The position numbers were made by a program, and so were the translations under genes. A stretch of 64,000 nt of DNA, from contig OZ038433.1 in NCBI GenBank assembly GCA_964036275.1, positions 51,849,902 through 51,913,901 of the forward strand, given 5' to 3'. Origin of the DNA: Litoditis marina (taxonomy: Eukaryota; Nematoda; Chromadorea; Rhabditida; Rhabditidae). The notes beneath the pieces were generated by a model. It saw nothing but the letters and a program-made list of their open reading frames with translations. It had not been told where the DNA came from and made no database searches. This document shows positions 25,308 to 64,000 of this stretch, one piece after another (position 1 is the first letter of the stretch; the number at the start of each line of letters is the position of its first letter).

Positions 25308-25376
25308 TCGTTCGCGGTAGTCGTTACAGGTTCTTGAGTGGTCGATATCTGCTCCATTTCAGGGATTTCGGTGGTC
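25308..25376 (-). CDS. Exon 1 from the 3' end: Thr-rich tail, possible terminal exon
   Basis: Encodes TTEIPEMEQISTTQEPVTTT with no cysteine. After Asn-Glu the sequence GAGTAAGTG can be read as donor GA/GTAAGT or as Glu then stop TAA. A TTTATT at 25198-25203 (AATAAA on the - strand) about 100 bp further supports a terminal exon. Confidence 0.6.
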
Positions 25377-28300
25377 CTAGAAGCGCATTGTGAAAACTGG
25401 CTTACATCGCTCAACCTTATCAGCTTCTCACATTATTGCATTACTGAGCTTCCTAATACGTCAGCTCGGATATACTGTTAGTCGATTGCACAATCACGTG
25501 AATGCCTGATTAGAATGTGCCTGATTAGCCTGATTAGAATGCTAACTTCATGTGATTGTTCAGTTTACTTCTAGTATACGTCAGCTCGGAGATACTGTCA
25601 ATTACAGTCACGTCAAACAAATTGAACACATCACAACTCAGTAACGTGTACTAATGTATGTAGAAGTGGAGAATGATAGCAATACTTTTTTACGTGAAAC
25701 GTATAGATATAACAAAGGTTTGAAACATATAGGTGAAGTCAGTTGTGTATCGGGCCTGTTATAGGTTTCTCATTTGAAATAGAAGACGTAGTTTGTAAAT
25801 ACTGTTTGTTTCAAACGACCAACATACAAATTCTGTTTCTAATAGATAGCATCATGATACGTGATGTTGCAGAAATGATTCTTCTACAACTGTTTTTTGA
25901 TTGAATGTTCAGTTTGAAATATGTACAAAACACCGTTGTACAGATTGTGTACTGTAGGATTCTTAGTAGAACAGATGAGAACTGTGTTATACTCACACTG
26001 GTATCTCTGTGGGGTATTCTGGAGTCTGTTCACACCTCTCGGCACACTTCTCCACGTCATCCAAAAACTCACATCGTTGCAGACATCGAGCCAGTTTCTC
26101 ATCAACACTGAAACGTTTCTTAGAGAGGTGGTTTATAGTACGTATGCTAGAAGATCCCGGTTCATCCATCCCATTCTGCGTCTCTCGCTCTGCCACACTA
26201 TTTCTTGTCTTTTACATCCCGGCGGGATGTAAGAGCAAAGAAATAGCGTATGTTTGAGGAGACGCAGGATGGGATGAAGGAGCCGGGATCTACTAGCATA
26301 CGTACTCAGAAGAGTAAGGGGTACAAAAACATGTAGTTCTGTTCTGCTGTGTTTGTAGTTTGTATTTTGCAACTGCTGAACTTCATTATCAGTTTTTTAC
26401 AGAATGATGTTGAAACTTATACTAGGAGTGAATTGAATATTCACGTAAAGTTCACGTTTCGATTGACTGACAGTATAGTGGACAGTTTATAGGAGTTCAG
26501 AGTGCTTGGAGGGTCGAGTATCTTATTTTATGTCACTAGAACGAATTATCAAGAAATCCCCAGAGATTGTTATAAAACAGGTATTATAATATTATTATGG
26601 AAATATGTGCTCAGTGAAAGGTGCCACTCAAAATCGTTTCAACCCGATTCAAGACGATTTTGGTGTTGTTCTCAGAGGGTTGGGTCATCCCTTTCATAAT
26701 AACATCGAAAAGTCTTAATGACAACAAATATTTTTGTTTTAAATAAATATAACACTGGTATTATAATAGTTGATGATTTGATTGATTCGGAACATTCGAT
26801 TTGATTGTTATGTGTATGCCCTTGTTGTTAGGTCACATTAGTGTCGATATTAGGTTATTTTATTTGAACAAAATTTAATTGTGTCACTAGTAGGGTTGTT
26901 AATCGAGTTTGAAATTTCGAGTTTTCGAGTTTCGAGTTTTTCGAGTTTTGGGAAAAAACGAGTTTTTCGAGTTTCGAGTTATTCGAGTTTTGGGAATTTC
27001 GAGTTTTTCGAGTTCGAGTTTTTAGCGTTTCAAAAAAACCGAGTTTTCGAGTTTCGAGTTGAACTCGAAAAACTGGATTTTCGAGTTTCGAGTTCGGTCG
27101 TTAGGTTTCGGGATTTTATCGAGATAAAATATAAGAATTTCTCGAGAAATTCGGATTTTTTCTCATGATTAGGCGAGAGTTGTGAAAAAAGAAGCATTTC
27201 ATGTTTGAAATAGCAGAAAAAGTGCTGTGAAACGCTCATTCGTTCATTATTTCTTACTTGGGACGTGGCCAAACTCGAAACTCGAAAACTCGAACTTTTC
27301 GAGTTTCAAAAATTTCGAGTTTTCGAGTTTCGAGTTTTTCGAGTTTTGAGAAAAACCGAGTTTTTCGAGTTTCGAGTTAATCGAATTTTGGAGATTTCGA
27401 GTTTTTCGAGTTTCGAGTCGAACTCGAAACTCGAAATTTCGAGTTATTTCGAGTTTTTTCGAATTTCGAGTTTGGCTTTAACAACCCTAGTCACTAGGTA
27501 AAAACACCGTTGTGCAGATTGTGTACTGTAGGATTCTTGATAGACTGATGTGAACTATATTATAATATTATGAAAATATGTGCTCAGTGAAAGGTGCCAC
27601 TCAAAATCGTTTCGACCCTGATTCAAGACGATTTTGGTGTTGTTCTCAGAGGTTCATAACAATAATATATTATAATAGTTTGAAATAGAGCACATTAACT
27701 TAATCATATCACCATCCAAAAGTCTTAGTGTTGATAATTCACCTTTTGTTGGTGTCCGGAGTGGGTGATGGGTCACATATCATCGCACAATCGTCCTCGT
27801 CGTAGCGAAACTGACAATTATACAGACATCGAGCCAGTTCTCCGTCACTGAAATGTTTCAATCGTTTGTTATAAAAAGGAAAACGCATCATAAAAACAGC
27901 TGCGCATTGCAAAGAGAGTGATTAGTATATTCACTTTCTCAGGCCATACTAATGTTTATATTATACCTTGTTACAGTTTTGTTCTCGGACGGTTGGTTTG
28001 TTGTCGGAGTAGTTAGTGTCATTGATGTTTATTGTTTACGGTTTACCTTTTGGATTCATAATATTTCCTATAGTTTACCTTTTAGTCGGAGGTGTTGGTC
28101 TGTCTATTGTCAATTCACATACTAATACACAATGGTCTCTATCGACTCGAAATTCACACTTATCTAGACACCGAGCCAGCTCTCCATCACTGGAATGTTT
28201 CAATCGTTTTCGATGGTGCGGAAAAGTAGTCAATACGTATCGAAAGTCCATGATATTACTCAAGATCAGCAAAATGCGATCAAACATACTGTAAACTATT

Positions 28301-31300
28301 ATTACTTCGTAGTTTGCACGTTATATTAAATGATTCAAGCTTGGAATGAGGCATTCGTGAACCTAAAACATCCACTTTTGGTAGTAAACAGTTTCATGCA
28401 AAATCAATAGAATAGTGAACATGAAAGAGTTTATTATGATGTAATCGTTCACCCATCGGTTGTTTGGTGGGTTGTTTGTGGAGCAGGAGTGGTTGTTGTT
28501 GAGAATTTCATGGCACATGATTGAGCACACGACTTTTCAGGGTACGACTCAGCACATTCGGACACACACTCTTTTTCCGGACTGAAATGTCGCACTCGGG
28601 TTATATAGTAGTGATATATTCACGATTTACCGGTAGTCTCAATAGTAGATTTTTGGGCACAATATCTGCATCACAGTAGAGATTTATTTTGAAAACTTCA
28701 ATGAGAGCTTCAAATATTACAGCAAAATAGTTGAAAAGTTATATTATACTTCCTTAACTGGTTCTTACTATTTTGATGAAATTTCTGGCGAGATCATGAA
28801 GATTGTGCATGTGCGAATGTATTGTTACTGTGAAAACGCTGGCAGCTTAAAGTACTGGAGAAGATGCATACTTAAATACTGGTGTAGATTTAGCCTGCAT
28901 ATCCTTATGAATTTCAAACAGTACAGGCGACATCTGTGTGAACCCGGTATTTTAAGTTGAAAAATTGGCGAGTCCGCTATTTTAAGTTGCAGCGGTTTTT
29001 CAGAGTTCAATATTATACTACTATGTAACGTTTTTACCCGACTTTATAACGTTTTTTCAAGTCCTCCTACTTTTTGATCACGGCATTTTTGTGTGATAAT
29101 GTACGTTTCATTGAATGAACTAGACTTTCGCGACATGATTTGATGTTCTTCTTTTTTTCTTAACAACATAGTGTAATTTACAATTTGTTAATTGCAAAAA
29201 ACGGTGAACTAGCCGAAGTGTCGCGTTGAGAAATTACAACACCATACCACTTATTTGATTAATTGAACAAAAAGAATACAGAATTACTCGTTAATTCTCT
29301 CACACAGTTGGTGTGTCACTGCAATGTCGCACCAATGTTATATAATTTCGAGAATGGATAATGTCCATTGTCAGTGCAGGATTCGGTATTAATATGGGTG
29401 AATATTTTAAATGTGACATTTGAACTCGTTTCGTATGTAACTTCAGTAATATTTCTTTGGTAGAGGTAAGAAAGAAAGTATCAATTTATAATGTCTACTC
29501 CGCTTCATTCTCAGGAGTTTTCTAGAAAGAGGTTAGCGTATTTATTGATCAAATAAGCGTAGCTTGATTCTGCTAAACACCAGAATGTAAAGTTTGAACA
29601 GAAATCTAACGGGATAAAACCACAAAGAAGTCGTATGGGGAAAAATCACCAGCTTTGGAAAGAGTGAACAGAATAAGTATGGTACGAATAATTAATTCAG
29701 ATTCGACTCCGTTCGTCAGATAAACGTGTGAATAAATATTTTTCCTCTTCAAGGATGAAATAAAACCTCCCACCTCAAAGTAGCCGCTTCAGTGACAGGA
29801 GTTGGTGTGGTCTTCACTGACCCTCTACAATATTTCTCACACTTCGCTGGACTTTCGAACGGTGCACAAGCTCGCATACACTCGCTCAATACGGAGTCAC
29901 TGAAATGTTTCACGCTCTCTATAGTATAGGAAAGCGCCGAATGGGTCGGTATACGGAGTACAGAGTGTGAATGTGATATGTAAATAGTAGACAGTGGTGA
30001 AATACGGAGAATGTTGTAATATCCTGAAAGCGTAAAAGTATTGCACGTTTTTCTGTGAACAAATGTTCCAGTACCCTGAAGGAGTTAGAGAAAGCGCTGT
30101 GAAGTTACGAAATCGCAGTATGATCAAAAAAGTCGCGAACAAAGAGATTGATAGTAGTTTGCATTTCTGTCAACCTGTAAAACGATTGGGTGTTGTATTG
30201 TGAATGGTTCTGGGATTTCGTGAATGAGGCTGTATGCAATAGGGTTGTTAACCGAGTTGGAAACTTTGAGTTTTACGAGTTTCGAATTCGAGTTTTCCGA
30301 ATTTCGAGTGCGAGTTTTCCGAATTTCGAGTTTTTCGAGTTTCGAGTTATTCGAGTTTTCAAAAATTTCGAGTTATTCGAGTTTCGAGTATTTCGAGTTT
30401 TTCGAAATTTCGAGTTTTTCGAGTTTCGAGTTTTTCGAGTTCTGAAATTTTCGAGTTTTTCGAGTTTCGAGTTTCGAGTTATGGATTATTTTCAAACCAA
30501 ATTAACAAAACGTATTTATTTGGCTCTAGCAAACACAGTGTATGGTACATCGAGCATTAGTCCGTTGTTTTCTTCAGTGAATGTTTCAACGATCCATTTT
30601 ACTCTAAAGAACTACAGATCGATTATATTATGTCTTTGAACAAAAGTGATGACAAATGTGTTTTTCGTTGACCTACCTTGTTGTAGGTTCGGGGGTGGTG
30701 GTATCGGCTGGCATGATCAACGTTTGACAGGATATTTTACATCCAACCTGGTCCTCATGAGTTTGACAGGCGTCAATACACGCACCGAGAATCTCCTTCC
30801 TTAAAGGGGGCAGCAATGAATTTTCAAATAAATGATCGAACTGAGACAATTCAATATATGTCCTTTTCTCACTAGAATGTCCAATTCAAAGCTCTATTTT
30901 CCAAAATTTCCCTCATTTTTGCCTACTGTCAGAGACGCAGAGGATGATTTGGAGTGAATGATTATTGATCGCGCGCACTTCTCTGAGTCTCGTGCCTTTT
31001 CGGCTAACACCGTCAGCTAAATCCGGCATTCAATGCAGCCCCCCTTTAAAGCAGGACGATTATGTGGAACAATCCCGTGTCATTGGAATACACTTTTCAA
31101 TTGCAGTTTAAGGGACTGAAGCGTTGGGATTTGACTTTTCTTTAACCACAATTTATATAGGCGACATGAAACATGAAACCGGTCTAATACTGTTCTATAG
31201 AGAAGGTCCATGAAATATCGTGGAAACGTGTCTCATCATGCTAGATGAAATAAACAGAGCCGAAATCTTCTTTTGAGATGCACTTCCCAGTGGCATCGAA

Positions 31301-55300: not shown

Positions 55301-57501
55301 TTTGAGAGTTGATTGCCGGATGAGCACTGAGAGTGTAAACTCACTCATTGTATTTCTGATTGAGTTTGTTCGATACATATTATGCTCGAATGAGTTATTA
55401 CTAAGCAACATTTTTTTTTGCCTTTTTTACTTAAATTACCTTAAATATGGTAGTGGGCTTGGTGTAGTCGGGTCTAGTGTACAGCCTTTTAAACACTGTT
55501 CGGCGGTTAACCATTGTTCACACTCCTTGATACATTCCTCTGTTGCGTTGGGTTTTCTGTAATCGATCAATTGATTAAATAAAGAAAGTTGGGTGAAATC
55601 TAGAATGAGAAACTCATTTCTGAGATACACACCAGCGATTGAAGACCATACTGTTGGTCATTTGCACAGTCACGTGAAACATGATGAACACAGCAGAACT
55701 CAGAAACGTGCAATTACAAAGTGTACGACGCCAGTTCAATTGTGGAGGTAGTTCATCGCTCGCCAGCAGACGAGAGACAGATGATTTATAATATTACGTC
55801 ATTTTAGGACAACTTCTGTCAAAAAACACATTGAAAAACATGACAAATCGATAGTTTGTAGTTTACTCACGTAGTTATTGGTTCGTCGGTGGTGGTAGGT
55901 TGGGGTGCGAGAATGGTAGAGTTGCATCCCGTCTCGCATACTTGATTACCTTCGCAAGCAGAAACACACGCAGATGCTATGACATCCCTGAAAGATTTCT
56001 AAACTAATAGAAGCGTTGAAACATTTGACCATTCCAAATTCATGTCACAGATGGTAATTAATGTTGTATGCAACCATATAATGGGGGGGGGGGGTGCTCA
56101 ATTTATAAATTGTTGTCTCCCGTCGGAATCGAACCTGCGAGTGACACAATCGAACCTTCGTAGACAAGCGCTAACCACTGCGCTACGAGAGAACATATAT
56201 GTTAGGCGTTGGAACGGGGAACGTGTCCTCACACAGCGTCAATTAAGATGTACAGTACCCTCCCACCTTCCCGTGACGAAGACTATATTCAGTTTCATGA
56301 ATATCGATGATACTTGTCATAAATACTCATAATTGACCTACCGTTGATCAGGTGCGATGGTTTCTGGATCCACTCCATCTAGAGCATAACAGCCTTCTGA
56401 ACATTTCTCGGCCTCAGGCAAAAATTGGCAAGCGGCAATGCATTCGCCCACCTTCTTTTCACTGAAAATAGGTGATCATGTTACAAAAAAGGAGAATACA
56501 AGTGTTTCAGGAATCGTTAGAATGCATTGATTTTTGAATGTGAATCTCAAATCTGAAATATACGAAAATTCCAGGATTACGTATGCTAGAAGATCCCGGC
56601 ATTTTCATCCCATCTTGCGTCTCTCGCTCTGCCTCACTGTTTCTTGTCTGTTACATCCCGACGGGACGTACGAGCAGAGAAACAGCGTGTGTTTGGGGAG
56701 ACGCAGGGTGAGATGAAGGTGCCGAGATCTTCTAGCATACGTACTCATGCCGCATCAGGATGCTATCCCGAGCTCGATTCGGCTGTTTTCTGATTCGAGG
56801 CAGGAATAACATCCCAACCCGGGAATGGAATGATTCATGCATACTTTTTCTTTTGTGGGGTCTGTTGTTCCTATTGTTGTTGTTGATTCTGTTTCTGTTG
56901 TCAATATATGTTTCAAAACTTCTGTTAGGAATTTGACACAATGGTTTATGAGTCGTACAACAAACCAAAACGACTGTGATTATTCTTTTTGAAGTTTATC
57001 ACAAACCACTCCATGAAAAATGATACTCTATTTGAGGCCGCACTTTATTCTAAAAATTGCTTTATCCCGCTCTGTCTGTAATTTGATACAATTATTTTAC
57101 GGTTCAAATTAATTGAAGACCGATCGAGCTACGGGGTGGGGATTGGGTTACTATAGTCTCACTATTTTATGAAAAGTTCATGAGAATGTGACAAGTTGAC
57201 GAACCAACTGCTCCATAGGTTTGATGTATGGATGTGTATGTGTATATATGTATATGTAATATGTATATGTTGTATGAACAATATATGTTTCAAAACTTCT
57301 CATCCCACTTACGGTATGGCTTCTGTTGTTCCTATTGTTGTTGATTCTGTTTGCGTTGTTAGTTCGGTGTTTGTTGTTGTTGCTGTCGTTGGAGGCGGAG
57401 TAGAGTTCGGTTCAAATTTAAGGCACTCGGTTATACACTCATTGTCTTGGTCCAGATATCTGCAGTCGGCCACGCACTTGATGAGGCTGGGGGTTCTGAA
57501 G

Positions 57502-57648: not shown

Positions 57649-57696
<48 letters not shown>

Positions 57697-60600
57697 GTAT
57701 ACCACATATGAAACATTGACCTGGTACCAAACTGTGAGAGTTCCTAACCAATACGCAAGCTTAGCGCAATCTTAGCGGCCTCAATGAGAGAGTGTGCAGA
57801 TCAGAGAGACGCAGAGTGATGAACTGTATAATGGTTCATTGGTCTTCAAGTTCAAGTTCTCCCGCTTTTGTAGATTGCTAATTGCTGAGAAATGGCGCGA
57901 AGCGAACGTTGTAGGAGAATATATAAAATACACTATTTGTCAACATGTATTAGATGACCTCTTGCCAAACTTCTACCAAATGTACCGTAAGCACAACTGT
58001 TTGAAGAAGGACGATTATGTGGTCGAATCGCAACGCTTAAGTCCTTTAAAGGGGGAATTGCAGTTTGAAGGACCGTTGACATGGGATCGGACCACATGAT
58101 TGTCCTGCTTTTATGGATTACTCATGTAAATACCACTTTCGCTCCCAAATCGTGAAGAAAGTGCCAAATTTCCACCAGTGGGACGGATGTTTCATTTCGA
58201 TTGTTAACCATCTGTGTGCAGCGTGAAGTGGTTTAGTTTCGGTACGTTTGGTTGATCACGTTACGGTATTCACGTTATCTAGTCTTTCGCCACTTAAACG
58301 TTGTGTTGCTCGTGTTACGTTACGTCACTTTTTGTTACGTTTTTGTCGCGTTCGGTTATGTTTACATTACGCTACGTTACGTTACTCACGTTATGTTATC
58401 TATAGTTTCTGTGGGTGCGTCGGCAGAGCCATATACTTCCTCGCGGCATATAGGTCTGCATTGGGAAAGTGAGTCGGCTATCCCCGAGCAGTCGGTCAGG
58501 CAATAGATGTACTCCTTGTCTTTTTCACTGTAAAACAAGTTACTAATTCACAATATATTTATAGTTATAGAATACATTATATATTACTAGAGTTCTGACG
58601 ATATGAGTGTAGTGATGCTATAAAATAATGTAATGCAGTTTTATTGACAATCAATTGTAAGAGTTGATTACGGAGCTGAGCACTCATTGACTAGTGTAGT
58701 TTCACTTATTGTAGTTATCAATGAACATTTTTTATGCATAAGTTAAGTTCCAAGGAATTATTATTAAGTAACATATTTTACACTTATACTTGTACTTTAA
58801 TTACCTTAAAGGTGGTACTGGGCTTTGTGGAGTCGGATGTAGTGTACAGCCTTTTAAACACTGTTCGGCGGTTAACCATTGTTCACACTCCTTGATACAT
58901 TCCTCTGTTGCGTTGGGTTTTCTGTAATCGATCAATTGATTATATAAAGAAAGTTGGGTGAAATCTAGAATGAGAAACTCATTTCTGAGATACACACCAG
59001 CAATTGAAGACCATACTGTTGGTCATTTGCACAGTAACGTGAAACATGTTGAACACAGCAGAACTCAGAAACGTGCAATTACAAAGTGTACGACGCCAGT
59101 TCAATTGTGGAGGTAGTTCATCGCTCGCCAGCAGACGAGAGACAGATGATTTATAATATTACGTCATTTTAGGACAACTTCTGTCAAAAAACACATTGAA
59201 AAACATGACAAATCGATAGTTTGTAGTTTACTCACGTAGTTATTGGTTCGTCGGTGGTGGTAGGTTGGGGTGCGAGAATGGTAGAGTTGCATCCCGTCTC
59301 GCATACTTGATTACCTACGCACGCGGAAATACACGCAGACGCTATGTGACCCCTAAAATATGTTCAAACTCATAGGAGCGTTGAAACAGTTGACCGATTC
59401 ATAATTCTTGCGCAGATAAAACTCTTTTTTAAGGATACACCACGAATAGTTTTGAAAAGAAGAAGCATGTTCCAGGTGCTCGTGACCATATCATACCAAA
59501 CTGAGTACAGTTCTGATCATAGGAACTGTGAAACGATTTTCAATTTGTAGAAACGTGGAAAGAATTTTCTGTGCTGTGTTTGTTCCAGAAACACCATCGT
59601 TTTGATTGTACTTCATGGCTCGAATTAACACTTGCTACACGTGGTTTCTATATATTGATGACTATTCGGTGGTGGTTGACACATTTCACATAACTCATCC
59701 CACTAACTCTTCACTAACTTTTGATCAGGTGTGAGCGTTCCTGCATCCACTCCACCCAAACGATAACAGTATTCTGAACATTTGTCGGCCTCAGGCCGAC
59801 TCTGGCAGAAGGCAACGCATTTGCCCACAGTTTCACTGGAACGTTGTTCAAAGTTGCCAAAACGCAAAATACAAATGTCTTCAGAATCGAAAAATAGCTT
59901 CGATCATGAAATCTAAAACAACTCAGTTGAAGTTTATTTGTGATTATTTCAATTAGATCAAAATTTGCAGATCATCTGATATGCTAGATAATCCCAGCAC
60001 CTTCATCCCATTTCCCAAGACTCGATAATTCTTCTCTTAGTTTTCATCTCAGATTTTCGATAAAACGAAAAACGTTGGTAAAATTACAGTAGTTGTAGTA
60101 GAGTAAGGGTCTATGCACAGAGAAAAAAATTCGAACTTCGATTGAAAATTATTTTTAATCAAACGAACACTACTAAACAAAACTTGATTGTGTCATTTTT
60201 GCACAAGGTCGCTAGATTCAAACTTGAAAATAACTCGCAGAAACAGGGCCAGACCAAATAACAGTTTGAGTGAACCTGACGAACTATCTCGAAGACTCTC
60301 ACTAGTATCAGGAAAAGTTCTGATCAGGAATCAGTTTATAGAGTGTTGATGAACTTCTGCTGAAATGCTGCAACTGAAATGCTGCAGCAGCAATTCCAAG
60401 AAATCATGAAGGTTTGGTGGAAACTACTGCGCCGCCTGAGTTTGCATCGAGTGCATTAGTTCCTATTAATGAGAGCACTTCAAAAGTTCTAATCAGGAAT
60501 CAGTTTATAGAGTGTTGATGAACTTCTGCTGAAATGCTGCAACTTCTGCAACTCACATGGTGGCGGGAGGGATTGTGAGAGTGCCTGGCCCGAATACCAA

Positions 60601-63600
60601 CTTTTTGCAAGGCATCGCACACGTGACATTATATTCACAGCTCATAATGATGTAGTGGAAAATGCGGTACCTGAACAGCAACTTATAAGTAAGTTTCGAA
60701 ACATTCGCTCGAAGTTTACCACCAGCCAAATATCAGAAAAAGTGACTGAGTGAACGGAATTGGCATTTTCCTCAAATAGCATACTCGGCTGTTTGATCTG
60801 AGTACGTATGCTAGAAGATACCGACACCTTCATCCCGTTCTGCGTCTCTCGCTCCGACTCACTTCTTCTCGTCTCTTACATCCCGACGGGATGTACGAGC
60901 AGAGAAATAGCGTATGTTTGAGAAGACGCAGGATAGGATGAAGAAGCCGGGATATTCTAGCATACGTACTCTGCGCAAATACAAGCACAGGTTTCAAATT
61001 CTACTTAACCACTACACCACAAGAAGACACCGCCTCGAAACGACGCAAGAACAATAAACATGGAATAGGAAAAAGCATATTATTTTTGATTTCCCGTTAA
61101 ACCTTTGCAAATAGCTTTCCCAGATGTGGGCTGCGAAAAATTTATAATGTCTCTGCATTTCCTTAGCCTAGTGAATATCATATAATGATGGTATATAGAC
61201 GTACTTCTCAGAAATAGGGGTATTTCTGGGATCCATTATTTCACTAAGATAGCACAAATCTGCACATCTTTGAGATGGATCGTTCCGAGCACAGTCTCGG
61301 ATACAGAGGGCAACCATCACTTCACTGAAAAGAAACCGAGACACTGAGAGAGTTTATGAGAAAGGATTTCCTCCATCTCTCTTTTTCTTTCTCTCAATCT
61401 TGGCACGATGCCAACGGGTCTCAGTGGGACTGAAAAGAACTATACAAACATCGCAGATGGCAACCTGATTTACCTGGTCACATCTTTTCTTGGTGTGAGC
61501 TGTGTTAAGGGGGGAGGCAGAATCGAATGCTCAAATAATAGGAAAAACTGAGACAACTAGTTGCATACTAATCTCATTCTGGAACTCAAACTGTGAATGC
61601 TCTTAGGTTATTTTATTTGAACAAAGTATAATTATGTCATTAGGACTTTTGGATGGTGGTATGATTAGGTTAATGTGCTCAGTAAGAGATGTACTCAAAG
61701 TCTTTTCGACCCCGATCCAAGACGGTTTTGGTTTGAACTGATGATGACCCAACCCTCTGAGAAAAACCCAAATCCGTCTTGAATCAGGGTCGAAACGGTT
61801 TTGAGTACATCTCTTACTGAGCACATTGACCTAATCATTTAAATGCTCTATTATTGGAATTTTACTTCATGTTCATCTCGGTCAGACACGCAGAGGACGT
61901 ATTACAAATAGGTTCGCAATGATGCACGTTTTATGTCGTTTTAATTGAAAAACAAACTCATAATCACCTTCCTGTAAAATCTGGGAACGTGTGCCTGATA
62001 CACTCATCTTTACAAATCAGGTCGCCTTCACATGCCTGAATACATCGCATCACGACTGTATCGGGGGCGCTGCAATTAGGCATTCATTAGAATAAACTGT
62101 TCTTCTTCCATTTTGGATTGAATGAAGAAACAGTTATCACAAACGAATTTACATGTACAGCCTACTCACAAATAAACGTTGCTCAGACTACAAAGTACAA
62201 TTAGGCATCAGTTGGTCGAGCTCGTTCAACGGACCTAGTGGGAGGTTCCATGGTGGTGGTACTGGTTGTTCCGATTTCATCGATAGCAGCATCGCAGCCT
62301 TGCTCACAACTCTCCAAACCCTGACACGCACTATTACATGCCTCCAATATCTCGGCTCTGAATGGTTTATCTGATTAGAGAGATTGAAACACTCACGTGT
62401 GCTACAAAGATGGTTTACGTTTTACGTAAAGCTGTATTTACACATGAACGGCTTCAAGCTTTTGATTTGCCTTCACTTTTTGACAGCTTTTTGCCCATAA
62501 AACATGGTGGGAGTTCAATGTTCTAAATACGAAGAAGGTACTAGGGTTGTTAATCGAGTTCAAAATTTCGAGTTTTCGAGTTTTCGAGTTTTCGAGTCTC
62601 AGGAAAAATCGAGTTTTCGAGTTTCGAGTTCGACTCAACTCGAAATTTTTTGAGTTTTTCCGAGTCGAGTCGAGCTTCGAGTTCGTCTTTAACAACCCTA
62701 GAAGGTACTGACTTTTCTGAAGTAGTGGTCGATTGTGGGTCCTTTCCACTGTAACCAAAACAGTCCTTGGAACACTTCTGAGGTGAAGCAAAGACTGCAC
62801 AGTCGGCGATACATTCTCCTATCACCGTTGTGCTGAAATGTTGGATATGAAGTTTGGAAAATGTGAAAAGAAAGAAGGAAGTGTAAGATGTAACGAATGA
62901 AGAGTAGTTCATACAGACCGTGGTTCAATGATATAGAAAATACCTAGTTTACACATTTAGATCATTATTCCTTCACGTCGCTTCGTTATTGAGCCGTACA
63001 TGAGAAAGAAAGAGACAGAAAAGGAGAGAAAGGTGTATAACAGAAAGACATCTCTCAAACTTCGACGTCAAATTGTAAAGGGCAGTACAAGGTCTACTAT
63101 ATATCCTATGTTTCGTATATTGACGAATCATACAATCAGGATTTTCATTTTCTATAAAAAATGGAAAGAGAACGCAAACCAATATGGAATGTCAGAAAGT
63201 TGATGTATCAATCTATTCTGTGTGGATCAAACTACAAAGTACAACTAAAACCAGTGAGGTCTTTGATCTTGTTCCACTCACTTAGTTACAGGTTCCGGCG
63301 TAGGAGTTGTTCCGATTCCATCCATAGCAGCGTCGCAGCCAGTCTCACACCTCTTCAAACTCTGACACGCAGCATTACACGCTTTCAGGATTTCGGCTCT
63401 GAACGAATATAGACGAATTGAAACATTCACCTGTGCTACAAAGATGGTTTACTTTTCACGTGAAGCTATTTTTACACATGAACGGAAAGTGTGGTTTAAA
63501 CATCACATATAATTCATGCTTTTGATTTGATTTCACTTTCTGATAGCAAAGCTTGAAACATGGTGGAGCTTCAATCGTATTCTTAATACTACCAATAAGG

Positions 63601-64000
63601 TACTGACTTTTCTGAAACAGTGATGGATTGTGGGTCCTTCCCAGCTTCACTAGAGCAGTCTTTCGCACACTTCTGAGGTGAATCGAAGATTGCACATTTG
63701 GCGATACATTTTCCTATCACTGTTGCGCTGAAAGGTTGGAAATGAAGTTCGGAAAAACAAAGTGTAAGTTGATTCTATGATGAAAGATTCTATGATGAAA
63801 CGCATTCCGAAGGATTGATTGTTTTCTGAACGTGAAACCTAGTCACGAGAGAGCGTTGATTAGACTACAGAGTACAATCATGGCCAAGTTGATCTTTGAT
63901 CTCATTAAACCCACCGAGTGGGAGGTCCGTATGTGCTCATGGTAATTCCAGGTATAGCAGCGTCGCAACGTTCCTCACATCTCTTCGAGCCCTGACACGC
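25308..64000 (-). CDS. Giant exon-repeat gene: tandem CX3C-CX3C hairpin modules (5' end outside window)
   Basis: Not recognised. Fifty-five - strand exons (listed one by one) keep one phase: 1 leading base and 2 trailing bases of a split codon at every complete boundary, so all can be joined or skipped without a frame change. Nearly every exon encodes a single C-x3-C-(x4-9)-C-x3-C module, usually preceded by a short acidic/hydrophobic stretch and followed by a Thr/Pro linker (such as TTTPEPTT) with some N-glycosylation sites (NFT, NST). The product in the window would be about 2,200 residues, probably extracellular and mucin-like. By pattern alone the module suits two antiparallel helices joined by two disulphides. 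Treating all exons as one gene is inference from phase and spacing; two or more adjacent genes are possible. No signal peptide or start is visible. Confidence 0.75.
25997..26107 (-). CDS. Exon 2 from the 3' end: CX3C module, spacing 8
   Basis: CLQRCEFLDDVEKCAERC, linker EQTPEYPTEIPV. Acceptor TTTCAG, donor GTGAGT. An R1 MITE begins 30 bp upstream of the acceptor. Confidence 0.8.
26137..26306. repeat. R1 palindromic MITE, copy 2
   Basis: Ends AGTACGTATGCTAGAAGATC and ATCTACTAGCATACGTACT; inner CATCCCGGCGGGATG is a perfect palindrome. Confidence 0.9.
26605..26700. repeat. R4 foldback fragment
   Basis: GTGCTCAGTGAAAGGTGCCA, AAGACGATTTTGGTGTTGTT and CTCAGAGGGTTGGGTCATCC match the R4 family in inverse orientation. 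Confidence 0.7.
26891..27489. mobile_element. Non-autonomous hAT-like element R3, 599 bp, with 8-bp target duplication
   Basis: Terminal repeats TAGGGTTGTTAATCGAG and TTAACAACCCTA; flanked by perfect 8-bp duplications GTCACTAG (26883-26890 and 27490-27497). The inside is mostly arrays of CGAGTTTTTCGAGTTT in both orientations around a unique centre. An 8-bp duplication is the hAT superfamily hallmark. Confidence 0.85.
27570..27655. repeat. R4 foldback fragment
   Basis: GTGCTCAGTGAAAGGTGCCA and AAGACGATTTTGGTGTTGTT again, ending at CTCAGAGG. Confidence 0.65.
27743..27847 (-). CDS. Exon 3 from the 3' end: CX3C module, spacing 8
   Basis: DGELAR, then CLYNCQFRYDEDDCAMIC, then linker DPSPTPDTNKR. 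Acceptor TTTCAG, donor AG/GTGAAT. Confidence 0.82.
28079..28189 (-). CDS. Exon 4 from the 3' end: CX3C module, spacing 8
   Basis: DGELAR, then CLDKCEFRVDRDHCVLVC, then linker ELTIDRPTPPTKR. A close paralogue of exon 3. A second copy of the donor-flanking sequence (GGTTTACCTTTT) lies at about 28040. Confidence 0.82.
28453..28581 (-). CDS. Exon 5 from the 3' end: CX3C module, spacing 8
   Basis: CVSECAESYPEKSCAQSC followed by a Thr-rich linker with STTTTPAPQTTHQTT. Donor GG/GTGAAC. Confidence 0.8.
28582..29773. other. Long intron, AT-rich, nothing recognised
   Basis: About 1.2 kb between exons 5 and 6. A short direct duplication of TATTTTAAGTTG occurs near 28950-28990. No module exon could be read here. 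Confidence 0.5.
29774..29899 (-). CDS. Exon 6 from the 3' end: CX3C module, spacing 8
   Basis: CMRACAPFESPAKCEKYC, linker KTTPTPVTEAATL. Acceptor TTTCAG, donor AG/GTGGGA. Confidence 0.8.
30240..30482. mobile_element. R3 hAT-like element, right end missing
   Basis: Starts TAGGGTTGTTAACCGAG and continues in CGAGTTTTTCGAGTTT arrays, then stops at TTATGG without the second terminal repeat. A truncated copy. Confidence 0.7.
30677..30799 (-). CDS. Exon 7 from the 3' end: CX3C module, spacing 8
   Basis: KEILGA, then CIDACQTHEDQVGCKISC, then linker MPADTTTPEPTTR. Donor AG/GTAGGT. The acceptor reads CCCCCTTTAAG because a TTAA-flanked MITE sits directly upstream. Confidence 0.8.
30801..31049. mobile_element. 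piggyBac-like MITE with TTAA target duplication
   Basis: TTAA at both ends (30801-30804 and 31046-31049). Inverted ends are AGGGGGCAGCAATGAA and TTCAATGCAGCCCCCCT. TTAA sites with C-run ends fit piggyBac-type MITEs. It abuts the splice acceptor of exon 7. Confidence 0.75.
31056..31140. repeat. R2 hairpin MITE, truncated
   Basis: Left end GGACGATTATGTGGAACAAT and centre CAATTGCAGTTTAAGGGACT are present; the right terminal repeat is missing. Confidence 0.7.
31916..32035 (-). CDS. Exon 8 from the 3' end: CX3C module, spacing 8
   Basis: CVAGCDLSDDREACADRC, then SSGGENSSNLTVPER with an N-glycosylation site (NLT). Acceptor TTCACAG, donor AG/GTTTGT. Confidence 0.82.
32338..32454 (-). CDS. Exon 9 from the 3' end: CX3C module, spacing 8
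   Basis: KQILDA, then CIDSCRTYDDQMGCELTC, then HTYIMPTPDQQ. Acceptor GGTTCAG, donor AA/GTTAGT. Pairs with exon 8 type as an alternating doublet. Confidence 0.83.
32971..33090 (-). CDS. Exon 10 from the 3' end: CX3C module, spacing 8
   Basis: CVAACDLSGDRKGCSGRC, then GGENSPNFTVTER (site NFT). Acceptor CTTCTAG, donor AG/GTTTGT. Confidence 0.82.
33347..33515. repeat. R1 palindromic MITE, copy 3
   Basis: AGTACGTATGCTAGAAGATC to GTCTTCTAGCATACGTACT. Inserted in a segment whose paralogues near 32280 and 34410 lack it. Confidence 0.9.
33569..33673 (-). CDS. Exon 11 from the 3' end: CX3C module, spacing 8
   Basis: EQILDA, then CIVSCRTYEDQMGCELTC, then HTYILPTSDPK. Close paralogue of exon 9 with a shorter linker. 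Confidence 0.83.
34031..34150 (-). CDS. Exon 12 from the 3' end: CX3C module, spacing 8
   Basis: CVAGCDLSGDRKACADRC, then GGENSPNFTVTER. Acceptor TTTTAG, donor AG/GTTTGT. A remnant of R3 (TAGGGTTGTTAATCGA) lies at 33964. Confidence 0.83.
34464..34574 (-). CDS. Exon 13 from the 3' end: short CX3C module, spacing 4
   Basis: CIEACDGEKCEATC has only four residues between the pairs; linker IADATTPEPTQR. First of the short type that recurs in the 961-bp array. Confidence 0.83.
35034..35153 (-). CDS. Exon 14 from the 3' end: module with a fifth Cys
   Basis: CVAKCSLSDNCKECANNC, then GGEIPANFTVIER. An extra Cys sits two residues before the third canonical one. Array copy 1. Confidence 0.85.
35425..35535 (-). 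CDS. Exon 15 from the 3' end: short module, spacing 4
   Basis: EEILDA, then CVEACDGEKCEATC, then IIIDGPITTEPPQR. Array copy 1. Confidence 0.85.
35995..36114 (-). CDS. Exon 16 from the 3' end: module with a fifth Cys
   Basis: CVAKCSLSDNCKECANNC, identical module to exon 14. Array copy 2. Confidence 0.85.
36386..36496 (-). CDS. Exon 17 from the 3' end: short module, spacing 4
   Basis: CIEACDGEKCEATC with linker DGPITTEPPQR. Array copy 2. Confidence 0.85.
36956..37075 (-). CDS. Exon 18 from the 3' end: module with a fifth Cys
   Basis: CVAECSLSDNCKECANNC; Lys to Glu change relative to copies 1-2. Array copy 3. Confidence 0.85.
37347..37457 (-). CDS. Exon 19 from the 3' end: short module, spacing 4
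   Basis: CIEACDGEKCEATC with linker TLDGPTTTEPPPR and donor GTGAGT instead of GTTAGT. Array copy 3. Confidence 0.85.
37917..38036 (-). CDS. Exon 20 from the 3' end: module with a fifth Cys
   Basis: CVAECSLSDNCKECANNC. Array copy 4. Confidence 0.85.
38308..38418 (-). CDS. Exon 21 from the 3' end: short module, spacing 4
   Basis: CVEACDGEKCEATC with linker DGPITTEPPQR, matching copy 1 better than copy 3. This patchwork suggests unequal exchange or conversion. Array copy 4. Confidence 0.85.
38883..39002 (-). CDS. Exon 22 from the 3' end: module with a fifth Cys
   Basis: CVAECSLSDNCKECANNC. Array copy 5. Confidence 0.85.
39274..39384 (-). CDS. Exon 23 from the 3' end: diverged short module, spacing 4
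   Basis: GILDT, then CITACRREGCEAAC, then TLDGPTTTEPPPR. Acceptor is ATTAAG, weaker than in the other copies. Edge copy of the array. Confidence 0.75.
39700..39810 (-). CDS. Exon 24 from the 3' end: CX3C module, spacing 8
   Basis: CVANCTRLDDGEECAEHC, then SAANYTIPQR (site NYT). Acceptor CTTTCAG, donor AG/GTTTGT. Confidence 0.82.
40051..40372 (-). repeat. 3' LTR (element on - strand)
   Basis: Shares AGTTACGAACGGAAGTTCGT at one end and AATCCAATATCCGAACA at the other with the repeat at 42881-43202. Confidence 0.88.
40453..42450 (-). pseudogene. LTR-element gag split by one in-frame TAG
   Basis: Two frames, 41341-42450 (369 residues, Met start) and 40453-41325 (290 residues), lie in the same reading frame with a single TAG at 41341-41343 and five sense codons between them. 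The downstream part has a retrotransposon capsid-like stretch (RYPKEVWRDDHLRDMLVERL, then SARDHFKIL) and a CCHC zinc knuckle CFKCNGLGHIAQYC. The upstream part is polar and helical. The stop may be a mutation, or a programmed readthrough site giving two products. Gag packages element RNA (family knowledge). Confidence 0.8.
42640..42845. repeat. Short tandem repeat in the retroelement leader
   Basis: About five copies of a 40-bp unit with GGTCAGTTTTACCCACACCA followed by GTGACGAAGAATTTCT. Lies between the primer-binding site and gag, where leaders and packaging signals sit in LTR elements. Confidence 0.75.
42881..43202 (-). repeat. 5' LTR (element on - strand)
   Basis: Same length as the partner LTR. 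Differences seen: GTCGAAAGG against GTCAAAAGG, AATGATG against AATAATG, ACAGAAC against ACAAAAC, TTTAAAT against TTTATAT. Confidence 0.88.
43525..43653 (-). CDS. Exon 25 from the 3' end: cassette type A, spacing 8
   Basis: CVAICKWVDEDRDCITEC, then a Ser/Thr linker STESPTTVTTAIP. Acceptor CTACAG, donor CC/GTAAGT. Last exon of cassette copy 5. Confidence 0.83.
44180..44310. repeat. ACGTT-type array beside type B donor
   Basis: Interrupted TTACGTTACG and TTCGTTACG words ending directly at the donor of the type B exon. Orthologous arrays: 49487-50009, 51672-51809, 54927-55038 and a sparse one at 58255-58389. Confidence 0.75.
44311..44442 (-). CDS. Exon 26 from the 3' end: cassette type B, spacing 7
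   Basis: KEYIY, then CLANCSEITDIDCRPKC, then REDVYGSVDAPTTT. Acceptor TTTACAG, donor AC/GTGAGT. Confidence 0.83.
44844..44958. repeat. R2 hairpin MITE
   Basis: AACGACTATGTGGTCC facing GGTCCACTTAACCGTCC around CCTTTAAACTG. Diverged copy, shared with 52343-52457 through the segmental duplication. Confidence 0.75.
44996..45115 (-). CDS. Exon 27 from the 3' end: cassette type C, spacing 8
   Basis: KPNSTEE, then CIKGCEHWFNFDQCLESC, then GVVQTTPKSS; a further Cys near the end. Acceptor ATTACAG, donor AG/GTAACT. Confidence 0.82.
45653..45769 (-). CDS. Exon 28 from the 3' end: cassette type D, spacing 5
   Basis: DVIESA, then CVSACEGNQVCETGC, then NSTILAPKPTTTDEP. Acceptor CTTTCAG, donor AC/GTGAGT. 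Confidence 0.83.
46094..46213 (-). CDS. Exon 29 from the 3' end: cassette type E, spacing 8
   Basis: ENKVGE, then CIAACQFSTEAEICSEDC, then DGVDPETITPDQR. Acceptor TTTTCAG, donor CG/GTAGGT. Confidence 0.83.
46322..46349. repeat. R1 MITE solo left end
   Basis: AGAGTACATATGCTAGAAGA followed by TCCCGGAA; the rest of the element is absent. Identical half-element at 53821-53848, so the loss predates the segmental duplication. Confidence 0.8.
46408..47895. mobile_element. About 1.49-kb insertion (empty site at 53907)
   Basis: The duplicate reads straight from CTTTTACGCCGAATTA into TATTCTATAAGTTGACCC at about 53908. Here 1.49 kb intervene: an R6 start (TCGCGCGCAGCGCGAAGCGC), a GTGGCGCGGC repeat near 46650, a tRNA-like unit and a 620-bp foldback at the right end. 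Either one composite element or nested insertions. Confidence 0.75.
46975..47053 (-). pseudogene. tRNA-like sequence with intact A and B boxes
   Basis: On the - strand, TGGCTCAGTCGG matches the A-box consensus and GGTTCGAATCC the B-box consensus. The acceptor arms (GACGATT and CACGGAC) do not pair and no anticodon stem is clear. A tRNA-derived promoter of a repeat rather than a tRNA gene. Confidence 0.7.
47281..47898. repeat. Foldback with about 125-bp arms
   Basis: Arm at 47281-47410 (TATAAAAAACGATGTAAAGT onward, through AAATCTAATCTCGCAATTTT) is matched in reverse by 47774-47898. The loop carries a copy of the ACTGTCAGTC-GCACAGTCACGTGAAA repeat also seen near 20270, 25480, 55645 and 59010. 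Confidence 0.85.
48085..48200. repeat. R4 foldback element
   Basis: GTTCTCAGAAGGGTTTAACT, then ACCCGACCCTCTGAGAACCA, then TGGCACCTTTCACTGAGCAC. Duplicated at 54085-54215. Confidence 0.7.
48350..48529 (-). CDS. Exon 30 from the 3' end: cassette type A with long Thr linker
   Basis: CVADCRYLNQDNECITEC, then a linker over 35 residues rich in Thr (such as PPPTTATTTEVTTQ). Likely heavily O-glycosylated. Donor AT/GTAAGT. Confidence 0.83.
48607..49166. mobile_element. R3 hAT-like element, 560 bp, empty site in the duplicate
   Basis: Ends TAGGGTTGTTAATCGAG and TTTAACAACCCTA; flanks TCATACAT and TCATATAT (7 of 8 match). The duplicate near 54608 has one TCATATAT and no element. Internal arrays of CGAGTTTTTCGAGTTT. 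Confidence 0.88.
49487..50009. repeat. Expanded (TTACG)n array, about 520 bp
   Basis: Runs of TTACG with TTACGTTACGTTATT variants, open in all three forward frames only because the repeat lacks stops. Ends directly at the donor of the type B exon at 50010. The duplicate has about 110 bp. Confidence 0.92.
50010..50147 (-). CDS. Exon 31 from the 3' end: cassette type B, spacing 9
   Basis: KKYIY, then CLADCSELADSLSLCRPLC, then REEVYDSVNKSTTT. The donor is directly followed by the (TTACG)n array. Confidence 0.83.
50411..50527 (-). CDS. Exon 32 from the 3' end: cassette type C, spacing 8
   Basis: KPNATEE, then CIKECEQWLTAEQCLKGC, then TLDPTTPSPLPYLR. Acceptor ATTACAG, donor AG/GTAATT. Confidence 0.83.
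50837..50965 (-). CDS. Exon 33 from the 3' end: cassette type A, spacing 8
   Basis: CLAICKWVDEDHDCITEC, linker LDYTPTPTTVTTAIP. Intact counterpart of the decayed exon at 51077. Confidence 0.82.
51077..51146 (-). pseudogene. Decayed type A exon
   Basis: Reads CVAIYKWVDEDHACKTK between splice-like signals. The second Cys is Tyr, the module is cut off after the third Cys, and at 70 nt it breaks the 1+2 phase rule. The syntenic position in copy 1 holds the intact exon 43525-43653. Confidence 0.7.
51672..51809. repeat. ACGTT-type array beside type B donor
   Basis: TTACGTTACG with TCGTTACG interruptions ending at the donor of exon 34; counterpart of 44180-44310. Confidence 0.75.
51810..51941 (-). 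CDS. Exon 34 from the 3' end: cassette type B, spacing 7
   Basis: CLANCSEITDIDCRPKC; near-identical copy of exon 26. Confidence 0.83.
52343..52457. repeat. R2 hairpin MITE
   Basis: Counterpart of 44844-44958 with AACGATTATGTCGTCC and GGTCCACATAACCGTCC ends. Confidence 0.75.
52495..52614 (-). CDS. Exon 35 from the 3' end: cassette type C, spacing 8
   Basis: CIKGCEHWFNFDQCLESC; copy of exon 27. Confidence 0.82.
53152..53268 (-). CDS. Exon 36 from the 3' end: cassette type D, spacing 5
   Basis: DVIASA, then CVSACEGNQVCETGC; copy of exon 28 with Glu to Ala before the module. Confidence 0.83.
53593..53712 (-). CDS. Exon 37 from the 3' end: cassette type E, spacing 8
   Basis: CIAACQFSTEAEICSEDC; copy of exon 29. 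Confidence 0.83.
54362..54538 (-). CDS. Exon 38 from the 3' end: cassette type A with long Thr linker
   Basis: CVADCRYLDQDNECITEC and a Thr-rich linker one residue shorter than exon 30. Donor CC/GTAAGT. Confidence 0.83.
54927..55038. repeat. Short (TTACG)n array
   Basis: About 110 bp counterpart of the 520-bp array at 49487-50009. Confidence 0.85.
55039..55176 (-). CDS. Exon 39 from the 3' end: cassette type B, spacing 9
   Basis: CLADCSELADSLSLCRPLC; copy of exon 31. Confidence 0.83.
55440..55556 (-). CDS. Exon 40 from the 3' end: cassette type C, spacing 8
   Basis: CIKECEQWLTAEQCLKGC; copy of exon 32. Confidence 0.83.
55871..55987 (-). CDS. Exon 41 from the 3' end: cassette type D, spacing 5
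   Basis: CVSACEGNQVCETGC, then NSTILAPQPTTTDEP. Acceptor CTTTCAG, donor AC/GTGAGT. Confidence 0.83.
56114..56193 (-). pseudogene. tRNA-derived SINE-like unit
   Basis: On the - strand: TCTCTCG, then A box TAGCGCAGTGGTTAGCGC, B box GGTTCGATTCC and CGGGAGA, so the acceptor stem can pair. The middle is long (serine-like variable arm) but the anticodon stem is poor. The surrounding 200 bp match 22980-23170. Confidence 0.65.
56342..56461 (-). CDS. Exon 42 from the 3' end: cassette type E, spacing 8
   Basis: CIAACQFLPEAEKCSEGC, then DGVDPETIAPDQR. Confidence 0.83.
56576..56746. repeat. R1 palindromic MITE, copy 4
   Basis: ATTACGTATGCTAGAAGATC to GATCTTCTAGCATACGTACT; slightly diverged inside (ATCCCGACGGGACGTACGAG). 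Confidence 0.88.
57313..57495 (-). CDS. Exon 43 from the 3' end: cassette type A with long Thr linker
   Basis: CVADCRYLDQDNECITEC, then a linker with PPPTTATTTNTELTTQ. A decayed fragment of a similar linker (CTGTTGTTCCTATTGTTG) lies near 56863. Confidence 0.82.
57506..57587. repeat. (TA)n tract inside an inverted repeat of the exon 43 acceptor
   Basis: About 70 bp of TA run between CTGAAGTATTATA and TATAATACTTCAG, making one long palindrome. A second (TA)n lies at 57651-57700. Confidence 0.85.
58004..58108. repeat. R2 hairpin MITE
   Basis: AAGGACGATTATGTGGTCGA facing TCGGACCACATGATTGTCCT, centre CTTTAAAGGGGGAATTGCAG. Confidence 0.75.
58390..58527 (-). CDS. Exon 44 from the 3' end: cassette type B, spacing 9
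   Basis: KEYIY, then CLTDCSGIADSLSQCRPIC, then REEVYGSADAPTET. Confidence 0.82.
58805..58921 (-). CDS. Exon 45 from the 3' end: cassette type C, spacing 8
   Basis: CIKECEQWLTAEQCLKGC, linker TLHPTPQSPVPPLR. The DNA from here to 59350 is a recent copy of 55440-55987 (offset 3,365). Confidence 0.83.
59236..59352 (-). CDS. Exon 46 from the 3' end: cassette type D, spacing 5
   Basis: CISACVGNQVCETGC, then NSTILAPQPTTTDEP. Acceptor TTTTAG. Confidence 0.82.
59719..59835 (-). CDS. Exon 47 from the 3' end: cassette type E, spacing 8
   Basis: CVAFCQSRPEADKCSEYC, then GGVDAGTLTPDQK. The most diverged E copy; first exon of the first cassette in transcription order. Confidence 0.82.
60300..60560. repeat. 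Short direct duplication in an intron
   Basis: AGGAATCAGTTTATAGAGTG with TTGATGAACTTCTGCTGAAA occurs at about 60327 and again at about 60493; a local duplication without coding sense. Confidence 0.7.
60557..60670 (-). CDS. Exon 48 from the 3' end: module missing its first Cys
   Basis: YIIMSCEYNVTCAMPC: the first Cys position is hydrophobic, the other three remain, spacing 5. Phase and splice sites (TGTTCAG, GTGAGT) are intact, so it may still be used. Has an NVT glycosylation site. Confidence 0.65.
60801..60970. repeat. R1 palindromic MITE, copy 5
   Basis: AGTACGTATGCTAGAAGATA to ATATTCTAGCATACGTACT. A degenerate half copy (ATATGCTAGATAATCCCAGC) lies at about 59979-60012. Confidence 0.9.
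61205..61324 (-). CDS. Exon 49 from the 3' end: CX3C module, spacing 8
   Basis: CIRDCARNDPSQRCADLC, then MDPRNTPISEK. Acceptor TTTTCAG, donor AA/GTACGT. Confidence 0.78.
61661..61838. repeat. R4 element, full-length, 178 bp
   Basis: Outer inverted ends ATGATTAGGTTAATGTGCTC and GAGCACATTGACCTAATCAT, arms continuing through AAGAGATGTACTCAAA. Gives the full structure of the family seen as fragments elsewhere. Confidence 0.85.
61968..62069 (-). CDS. Exon 50 from the 3' end: CX3C module, spacing 5
   Basis: CIQACEGDLICKDEC, very short linker IRHTFPDFTGR. Acceptor ATTGCAG, donor AG/GTGATT. Confidence 0.78.
62235..62357 (-). CDS. Exon 51 from the 3' end: CX3C module, spacing 5
   Basis: AEILEA, then CNSACQGLESCEQGC, then IGTTSTTTMEPPTR. 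Acceptor ATTCAG; donor AG/GTCCGT is weak. Confidence 0.75.
62542..62700. mobile_element. R3 hAT-like element, 159 bp, perfect 8-bp target duplication
   Basis: TAGGGTTGTTAATCGAG to TTTAACAACCCTA, flanked by GAAGGTAC on both sides (62534-62541, 62701-62708). It sits a few bases beyond the donor of exon 52. Confidence 0.92.
62713..62832 (-). CDS. Exon 52 from the 3' end: CX3C module, spacing 8
   Basis: TTVIGE, then CIADCAVFASPQKCSKDC, then SGKDPQSTTTSEK. Acceptor TTTCAG, donor AA/GTCAGT. Confidence 0.83.
63282..63398 (-). CDS. Exon 53 from the 3' end: CX3C module, spacing 5
   Basis: AEILKA, then CNAACQSLKRCETGC, then IGTTPTPEPVT. Acceptor GTTCAG, donor AA/GTGAGT. Paralogue of exon 51. Confidence 0.82.
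63608..63727 (-). CDS. Exon 54 from the 3' end: CX3C module, spacing 8
   Basis: ATVIGK, then CIAKCAIFDSPQKCAKDC, then GKDPQSITVSEK. Paralogue of exon 52; exons 51-52 and 53-54 are alternating doublets. Confidence 0.83.
63915..64000 (-). CDS. Exon 55 from the 3' end: CX3C module, cut by window edge
   Basis: Visible part ACQGSKRCEERC, then DAAIPGITMSTYGPPTR and donor CG/GTGGGT. Same type as exons 51 and 53, so the gene continues to the right. Confidence 0.78.

Follow-up and report, generated by a model that had tools for sequence, protein, structure and literature searches.

The window analysed here is a 64,000-nucleotide stretch of the genome of Litoditis marina (C4:51849902-51913901 of a 262-Mb assembly), a nematode described as a marine bacterivore. 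From 24.7 kb to the right edge of the window, its minus strand holds stop-free segments in which C-x3-C ... C-x3-C is repeated. Analysis of the window together with 60 kb of flanking DNA on its left and 140 kb on its right (264 kb in all; positions above 64,000 are extended window coordinates) revealed a module array that lies on the minus strand only, runs from 24.8 to 125.1 kb, overshoots the right window edge by 61 kb and comprises 137 strict modules with an in-phase acceptor. The locus appears to consist of three tandem genes, designated A, B and C, each with a signal-peptide-like first exon, and the part of the array inside the window is the 3′ two-thirds of gene C, the subject of this report. 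Mitochondrial COX1 from this assembly matches a UniRef entry of Litoditis, a genus of Rhabditidae, at 100% identity over 446 aa, with the runner-up at 95%. A parasite was considered as host and dropped, the host being Litoditis; at least three CAP-family matches were seen. L. marina is already cultured and sequenced in laboratories, and nanopore long-read RNA sets are described for it (PMC10970011, PMC13405938). An Rfam scan of the window returned no matches.

The strict motif CX3C-x(4-9)-CX3C is present in all 52 modelled module exons lying wholly inside the window, a count that holds by construction, as the exons were preselected by a motif filter with their phase fixed. The minus strand of 24-126 kb carries 136 motif matches and the plus strand none; when non-overlapping base pairs were shuffled 30 times, the matches averaged 0.4 and never exceeded 2, so that chance is no explanation for the array. 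Among 9,164 open reading frames (ORFs) of the 264 kb, a hidden Markov model (HMM) of the module scored at least 12 bits at 137 places on the minus strand of 24-126 kb, and nowhere on the minus strand outside that region or on the plus strand of the 264 kb; this HMM was trained on the array itself, so that its zeros alone count as a control. The modules have TTTCAG-like acceptors and GTAAGT- or GTGAGT-like donors, and in 102 of the 132 modelled exons the distance from the acceptor to Cys1 is 19 nt.

Each module exon of the gene models opens with the last nucleotide of one codon and closes with the first two of another. A phase-free test with plain consensus splice scores on 136 modules found the best acceptor to be uniquely phase 1 in 132 and the best donor uniquely phase 2 in 128, both best sites being in the symmetric phase in 124/136 modules, in 49/53 of those in the window and in 75/87 once the near-identical array is left out. 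With the same phase at both ends, exons can be gained or lost without a frame shift. The cysteine pattern and the in-phase splice frames noted in a first-pass annotation of the window are thus borne out by the shuffle control and the phase-free test. A non-coding or pseudogene cluster was rejected, since frames and splice phase are kept at a mean pairwise identity of about 25% (all gene C exon pairs).

In silico splicing gave predicted models for all three genes. Gene A has two module exons, with a start exon at 125,488-125,433 and a last exon at 124,623 that runs into a stop codon, which is preceded by a weak donor (3.6). The gene B model extends from 110,963 to 89,691 and has 57 exons (56 module exons, 50 of them near-identical) encoding 2,147 aa, and the gene C model extends from 86,533 to 24,625 and has 84 exons (83 module exons) encoding 3,347 aa (361 kDa) with a single final stop. 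Both include less perfect module exons that were added to the models (five in C, one in B). Beyond the signal peptide, neither model contains a segment hydrophobic enough for a membrane anchor.

A scan of 20-126.5 kb for signal-peptide-like first exons of the fitting phase found five distinct candidates on the minus strand and one on the plus strand. Three of the five stand at the wanted gene starts (125,488-125,433, 110,963-110,914 and 86,533-86,484), and the last of these supplies gene C with the signal-peptide-like exon that the first-pass annotation had proposed to look for to the right of the window. The other two lie at 116,802, with near copies in a tandem repeat, and at 48,606, overlapping the start of a module exon. 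In nematodes, spliced-leader trans-splicing leads one to expect an acceptor directly at the gene start; the B and C start exons are close copies of each other and stand directly behind TTACAG, and the A start exon lacks it.

Between 126.5 and 20 kb, 131 module candidates run into a stop, and all but three of them offer an in-phase donor scoring above 2.5. The exceptions are 89,820-89,691, 24,817-24,625 and, doubtfully, 83,382-83,124, where a weak donor (1.4) occupies the site used in related exons. The probable terminal exon of gene C (24,625-24,817, minus strand; acceptor 8.2) contains a last module with an inner loop of 6, a tail and the stop codon, and terminal exons resembling it are present in a second cluster on contig C1 described below. 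The gene was first thought to end at 25,308 with a 55th, module-less exon, for which we found no credible in-phase acceptor (best score 0.7); it probably ends at 24,625, where acceptor, module and stop coincide. The giant chain of single-exon modules that had been proposed is supported by the predicted gene C model.

The main rival to this gene model is that 86.5-24.6 kb holds a series of medium-sized genes that start and stop separately, which we hold to be unlikely. The neighbourhood itself contains the separate-looking genes A and B, the C1 cluster contains a candidate four-module gene, and exon 83,382 could be terminal. Candidate internal starts also exist: the scan above gave 48,606-48,512, and a looser one of 83.3-24.6 kb gave two possible signal-peptide exons, at 60,963-60,863 and 28,422-28,376. 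The first of these three, however, overlaps a module exon start and the second lies, by eye, in a dispersed repeat, whereas the possible exon at 28,376-28,422 (minus strand) has a hydropathy of 2.36 and a phase 2 donor of 6.7. It is flanked on both sides by gene C module exons and, were it used, a short gene at the 3′ end would begin there. Against a split also stands the scarcity of donor-less stop exons, one of the three being the far end of gene C and another the ambiguous 83,382.

Upstream of the terminal exon in the direction of transcription, all module exons of gene C in the window lie on the minus strand. Starting from the left, these are 25,997-26,107, 27,743-27,847, 28,079-28,189, 28,453-28,581 (weak donor, 2.9), 29,822-29,899 (where the chosen donor leaves almost no linker and a later one is possible), 30,677-30,799 (one model used a longer form starting at 30,871), 31,916-32,035, 32,338-32,454, 32,971-33,090, 33,569-33,673, 34,031-34,150 and 34,464-34,574, the last with a short loop (n=4). 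A two-exon repeat of 961 bp follows, in which exons 35,034-35,153, 35,995-36,114, 36,956-37,075 and 37,917-38,036 alternate with the short-loop exons 35,425-35,535, 36,386-36,496, 37,347-37,457 and 38,308-38,418; the last of these is the first sequence of our second AlphaFold model. Exon 38,883-39,002 is a copy of the 961-bp-repeat type, and 39,274-39,384 again has a short loop. Next come 39,700-39,810, 43,525-43,653, 44,311-44,442, 44,996-45,115, 45,653-45,769 and 46,094-46,213, whose coding sequence is identical to that of 53,593-53,712. Exon 48,350-48,529 has a long Thr/Pro linker, as do 54,362-54,538 and 57,313-57,495; between the first two of these lie 50,010-50,147, 50,411-50,527, 50,837-50,965, 51,810-51,941, 52,495-52,614, 53,152-53,268 and 53,593-53,712, and between the last two 55,039-55,176, 55,440-55,556, 55,871-55,987 and 56,342-56,461. 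The series continues with 58,390-58,527, 58,805-58,921, 59,236-59,352, 59,719-59,835, the degenerate 60,557-60,670, which by eye has lost Cys1 and keeps its splice sites and frame, 61,205-61,324, 61,968-62,069, 62,235-62,357, 62,713-62,832, 63,282-63,398 and 63,608-63,727 (the sequence of the first AlphaFold model), and ends with 63,915-64,000, which crosses the window edge and reaches 64,028. The 54 modules counted earlier are probably 52 strict ones, which stand, one without Cys1 and one cut by the edge.

Several repeats and ORFs lie among the module exons of gene C. One intron holds two adjoining ORFs at 40,453-42,483 (minus strand), the first with a retrotransposon gag match (E 0.0027, below the curated cut-off) and, by eye, a CCHC-knuckle-like motif, the second with no Pfam match. 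Dispersed TTTCGAGTT minisatellite-like repeats occur in introns at 26.9-27.5, 30.3-30.5, 48.6-49.1 and 62.6 kb, and ACGTT tandem repeats at 49,493-50,013 and 54,933-55,042 directly adjoin paralogous module exons.

The C1 cluster spans C1:4233000-4312500. A query built from its modules returned 27 matches, 22 on C1 (4.233-4.312 Mb) and five weak ones (E 0.0025 to 0.36) at the C4 locus, and a gene A query returned ten, four at its own locus, four in the C1 cluster and two elsewhere at E >1. Within 21.5 kb of the cluster there are 14 motif matches, 13 with a phase-1 acceptor and 10 with a phase-2 donor, the remaining four lacking a donor and resembling terminal exons. Inverted copies occur among the matches of the cluster, which also contains two signal-peptide-like exons and a stretch that may represent an entire gene of four modules. 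Judged by these sequence matches, the modules are a family with an unlinked second cluster on C1. The first-pass annotation had described a single giant protein; the chain stands, its status as a lone oddity does not, since there appear to be at least three tandem genes and a cluster on a second contig.

The history of the array can be read from its repeats. The gene B array (92,302-106,252) consists of 50 exons of 111 bp with a period of mostly 281 or 283 bp (46/49). Its exons fall into 18 different sequences and a block of 13 units occurs in two copies, making the array a natural record of unequal crossing-over within a coding region. In gene C, the 961-bp unit is repeated at 35.0-38.4 kb, and a larger block is repeated about 7.5 kb apart at 43.5-53.7 kb. 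Across the identity bins from 50 to 90%, gene C exon pairs (102 non-independent pairs) gave ratios of non-synonymous to synonymous differences per site (pN/pS) of 0.50-0.61. Positive selection in the gene B array was considered and dropped, as its column count (21 non-synonymous and 4 synonymous variable exon columns; 33 of 170 in introns) shows neither constraint nor clear selection.

AlphaFold predicted two helices per module in both models that we made, with moderate confidence (mean predicted local distance difference test (pLDDT) 74.5 and 72.8; predicted template modelling score (pTM) 0.43 and 0.41). This agrees with the earlier expectation that the paired cysteines would sit on the helices of a hairpin. 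Among PDB folds, the first model matched only plant VBP-8 (6o3q) and the Ana o 1 leader (7uv1), both weakly; the VIA comparison covered 3 chains only. When module profile A4 was searched against PDB sequences, scorpion kappa-KTx peptides came out on top (E 0.014-0.21), a match that is not significant and is probably carried by the cysteines. Neither A4 nor the first profile, A1, found a plant hairpin at E up to 10, a comparison in which modules of about 38 residues give little power.

Pfam scans, with matches considered to E up to 1, covered two overlapping module sets and four spliced pieces. The set of 24 modules gave LRR_13 (E 0.045), Eclosion (0.046), Notch (0.051) and DUF2574 (0.15), in one member each; the set of 25 wider modules gave Defensin-like in three (best E 0.0027), Ole_e_6 (0.0047), Stig1 (0.016), Toxin_25 (0.16) and Keratin (0.65); and the four spliced pieces gave three chance matches, all far under the cut-offs. 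On rescanning of 20 of the 25 modules, Defensin-like scored 18.1 and 14.8 bits against a cut-off of 27, Ole_e_6 17.3 against 27.7 and Stig1 16.1 against 24.1. None of these was taken as membership, each being below the cut-off wherever one was shown. The earlier view that no named domain fits thus holds for the sequence families tested, though not for the fold class, where the alpha-hairpinin frame fits.

A secreted relative of the mitochondrial small Tim chaperones is highly improbable: a twin CX3C is common to both, as these chaperones are described in PMC3759932, while the module genes have signal-peptide-like first exons and Thr/Pro linkers, zf-Tim10_DDP is absent from the Pfam matches at E up to 1, and no small Tim is found among the PDB profile matches.

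Searches of a protein database that includes nematode proteins found no match for residues 1-701 of the gene C protein at E<=10 among 3,967 candidates, and none for seven roughly four-module sequences (A2) at E<=1 among 7,990 scored candidates. Candidates needed exact shared 5-residue words and a length within a set band, and Thr-rich words may have crowded the list, so nematode homologues may have been missed. Among the top-ranked open-licence publications we recognised none describing the module in nematodes.

The linkers average about 14 residues, and 48% of their 1,882 residues are Ser, Thr or Pro, in line with the Thr/Pro linkers reported at first. The mean net charge per exon is -3.3 in gene C and -2.0 in gene B, and exceeds zero in 7/77 and 1/54 exons, respectively. 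In the gene C protein there is no R-x-K/R-R site and no regular dibasic site; of its 32 dibasic pairs, 8 fall in linkers and the others in or directly behind the cysteine cores. With a predicted signal peptide, Ser/Thr/Pro-rich stretches and no membrane anchor, hydropathy and composition are consistent with the mucin-like secreted protein suggested by the first-pass annotation.

These properties bear on the main rival on function, that the chain is a precursor cut in its linkers to release dozens of free hairpin peptides for defence or signalling. Typical antimicrobial peptides are cationic, unlike the acidic modules here, and the dibasic and R-x-K/R-R sites, the only protease sites considered, give no regular pattern for cleavage. 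The rival nevertheless has points in its favour: gene A is predicted to have only two modules, modules have diverged strongly (25% mean pairwise identity in gene C), and the layout matches that of plant modular alpha-hairpinin precursors, described as a signal peptide, a cassette of up to 12 modules and a short C-terminal part (PMC11591084). We regard release of peptides as improbable on balance, and the lack of such sites, the acidic charge and the Ser/Thr/Pro-rich linkers make the chain itself the favoured product.

Cysteine counts raise a further reading, in which the protein is a disulphide-cross-linked structural component of the cuticle or pharyngeal lining with odd cysteines joining chains. 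Five cysteines occur in 11 of 132 module exons, so unpaired ones may exist, and C. elegans has a secreted cysteine-rich-repeat family, the Ctx/abu genes, as described in PMC3534327. Exactly four cysteines are found, however, in 120 of the 132 exons, which could be closed modules; the linkers are glycosylation-ready; and no collagen, chitin-binding or Ctx match appeared in the Pfam scans. Such a role is quite unlikely. A degenerate module at 74,258-74,377 retains Cys1 and Cys4 but lacks both Cys2 and Cys3, the other degenerate modules having lost single cysteines, and this joint loss hints at 2-3 and 1-4 pairing.

Overall, we favour, with a probability of roughly 0.53, the reading that gene C is transcribed as a single unit and encodes a very large secreted chain of disulphide-stapled hairpins that forms a coat or gel. 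Its product would begin with a signal peptide some 16 residues long, continue through about 80 modules and finish in a short tail without a membrane anchor. Each module, encoded by one phase-symmetric exon, would fold into a small two-helix hairpin in which each helix bears, through its CX3C motif, two cysteines on one face, and disulphides Cys1-Cys4 and Cys2-Cys3 might, by analogy, staple the helices. The hairpins would be separated by flexible Thr/Pro/Ser-rich linkers that could bear O-glycans, giving an acidic, hydrated, protease-resistant string of beads. From composition and architecture we infer that it most likely serves as a gel or coat covering an outer surface, be it pharynx, gut, cuticle or egg. 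Chain length could shift by exon duplication or loss, changes that are frame-neutral given the matching phase of the two exon ends.

Several observations weigh against this reading. The clean reading frame of the models is partly by construction: motif exons served to train the splice matrix, the phase was imposed, and any exon lacking the motif had been removed before model building. Each of the five exons added to gene C has a lost or mis-spaced cysteine or a weak splice site, and the gene could be split by exon 83,382, with its poor donor, as a terminal exon or by a signal-peptide exon at 28,422-28,376. In the gene B array, exon variation by the column count above is not below that of the introns and indicates no constraint there, and the raw pairwise pN/pS of the array is 1.6. 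On the side of the fold, AlphaFold confidence is only moderate, the second model matched only ferritin-like protein chains (E 7-8), profile A1 found only unrelated PDB chains (E 0.65-1.5) and no hairpin peptide, and for A4 unrelated erbB-2 chains came after the scorpion peptides (E 0.29).

Other elements surround the array. To its left in the window are an integrase-core (rve) match at 17,466-17,816 (minus strand; E 0.00088, below the curated cut-off), a 328-aa open frame at 14,741-15,724 (plus strand) that has no Pfam match and resembles a LINE ORF1, four 140-bp tandem copies with 90% matches at 6,779-7,332, and an inverted repeat (9,918-10,193, plus strand; 10,363-10,548, minus strand) whose arms both encode the same peptide with a CX3C pattern. 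That peptide was left out of the family, as no acceptor was found for the minus-strand copy. Kinase-like and DEAD-box-like exons, recognised by eye, lie on either side of the cluster, at 136,298-137,193 and at about -54 to -56 kb.

Comparison with known systems begins with the secreted mucins, which combine Thr/Pro/Ser-rich stretches with cysteine-rich modules at very large size. In contrast, the linkers of gene C are short and alternate with hairpins, and no mucin-type domain was found in the Pfam scans of modules and spliced pieces. Nor did the two module sets or the spliced pieces give any match to C_tripleX, with its repeated C-x3-C-x3-C, which we take to be the Pfam family of the Ctx/abu proteins. 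Those nematode proteins are likewise secreted with repeated cysteine motifs, but are described as 300-570 aa long (PMC3534327). The SCREPs (secreted cysteine-rich repeat proteins) share the architecture of secreted tandem disulphide-rich domains on linkers, a class defined by architecture and not by homology, and their description shows no CX3C hairpin in the part available to us (PMC6262176). Scorpion kappa-KTx/hefutoxin peptides (2ndd, 1wqc, 1wqd; Toxin_25), described as having a cystine-stabilised helix/helix fold (PMC11722136), share the CX3C...CX3C frame and gave the best PDB profile matches, none at a significant level (E 0.001 or a curated cut-off), with Toxin_25 matched by 1/25 modules at E 0.16; they are single, short venom peptides, in contrast to multi-module chains in a free-living worm.

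The closest likeness is to plant alpha-hairpinins and vicilin-buried peptides, including VBP-8 and the Ana o 1 leader, which gene C resembles in its CX3C frame, predicted helix-loop-helix and precursor layout. Their 4C motif is given as CX3C-X4-20-CX3C, with a helix-loop-helix held by disulphides Cys1-Cys4 and Cys2-Cys3 (PMC11591084). That motif is found in 132 of 133 modelled (motif-filtered) module exons, with inner loops of 4-9 residues; the helix-loop-helix is seen by AlphaFold prediction, the second model having no hairpin-peptide match in the PDB, and the precursor layout in the predicted models of A, B and C. Unlike the plant proteins, gene C belongs to an animal, has about 80 modules as against up to 12, devotes one exon to each module, is acidic with Thr/Pro linkers and no regular cleavage site, and gave no match by sequence profile. 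Tentatively, and at somewhat less than even odds, the modules may represent an unnamed animal domain family, a disulphide-stapled alpha-hairpin independent of those of plants and scorpions, whose chain of about 80 beads would be a new class of mucin-like extracellular polymer with a bead number that changes fast by phase-neutral exon duplication. We know of no longer hairpin chain, and an animal chain of such length would to our knowledge be new. If the gene models hold, a 350-kDa animal secretion has taken as its repeat unit a minimal fold familiar from short peptides of plants and venoms. Tandem genes that range from 2 to about 80 modules, together with recent duplications of units measuring 281 bp, 961 bp and about 7.5 kb, would then allow direct tests, in a marine nematode, of how giant repeat proteins grow and how stapled hairpins are used as a biomaterial.
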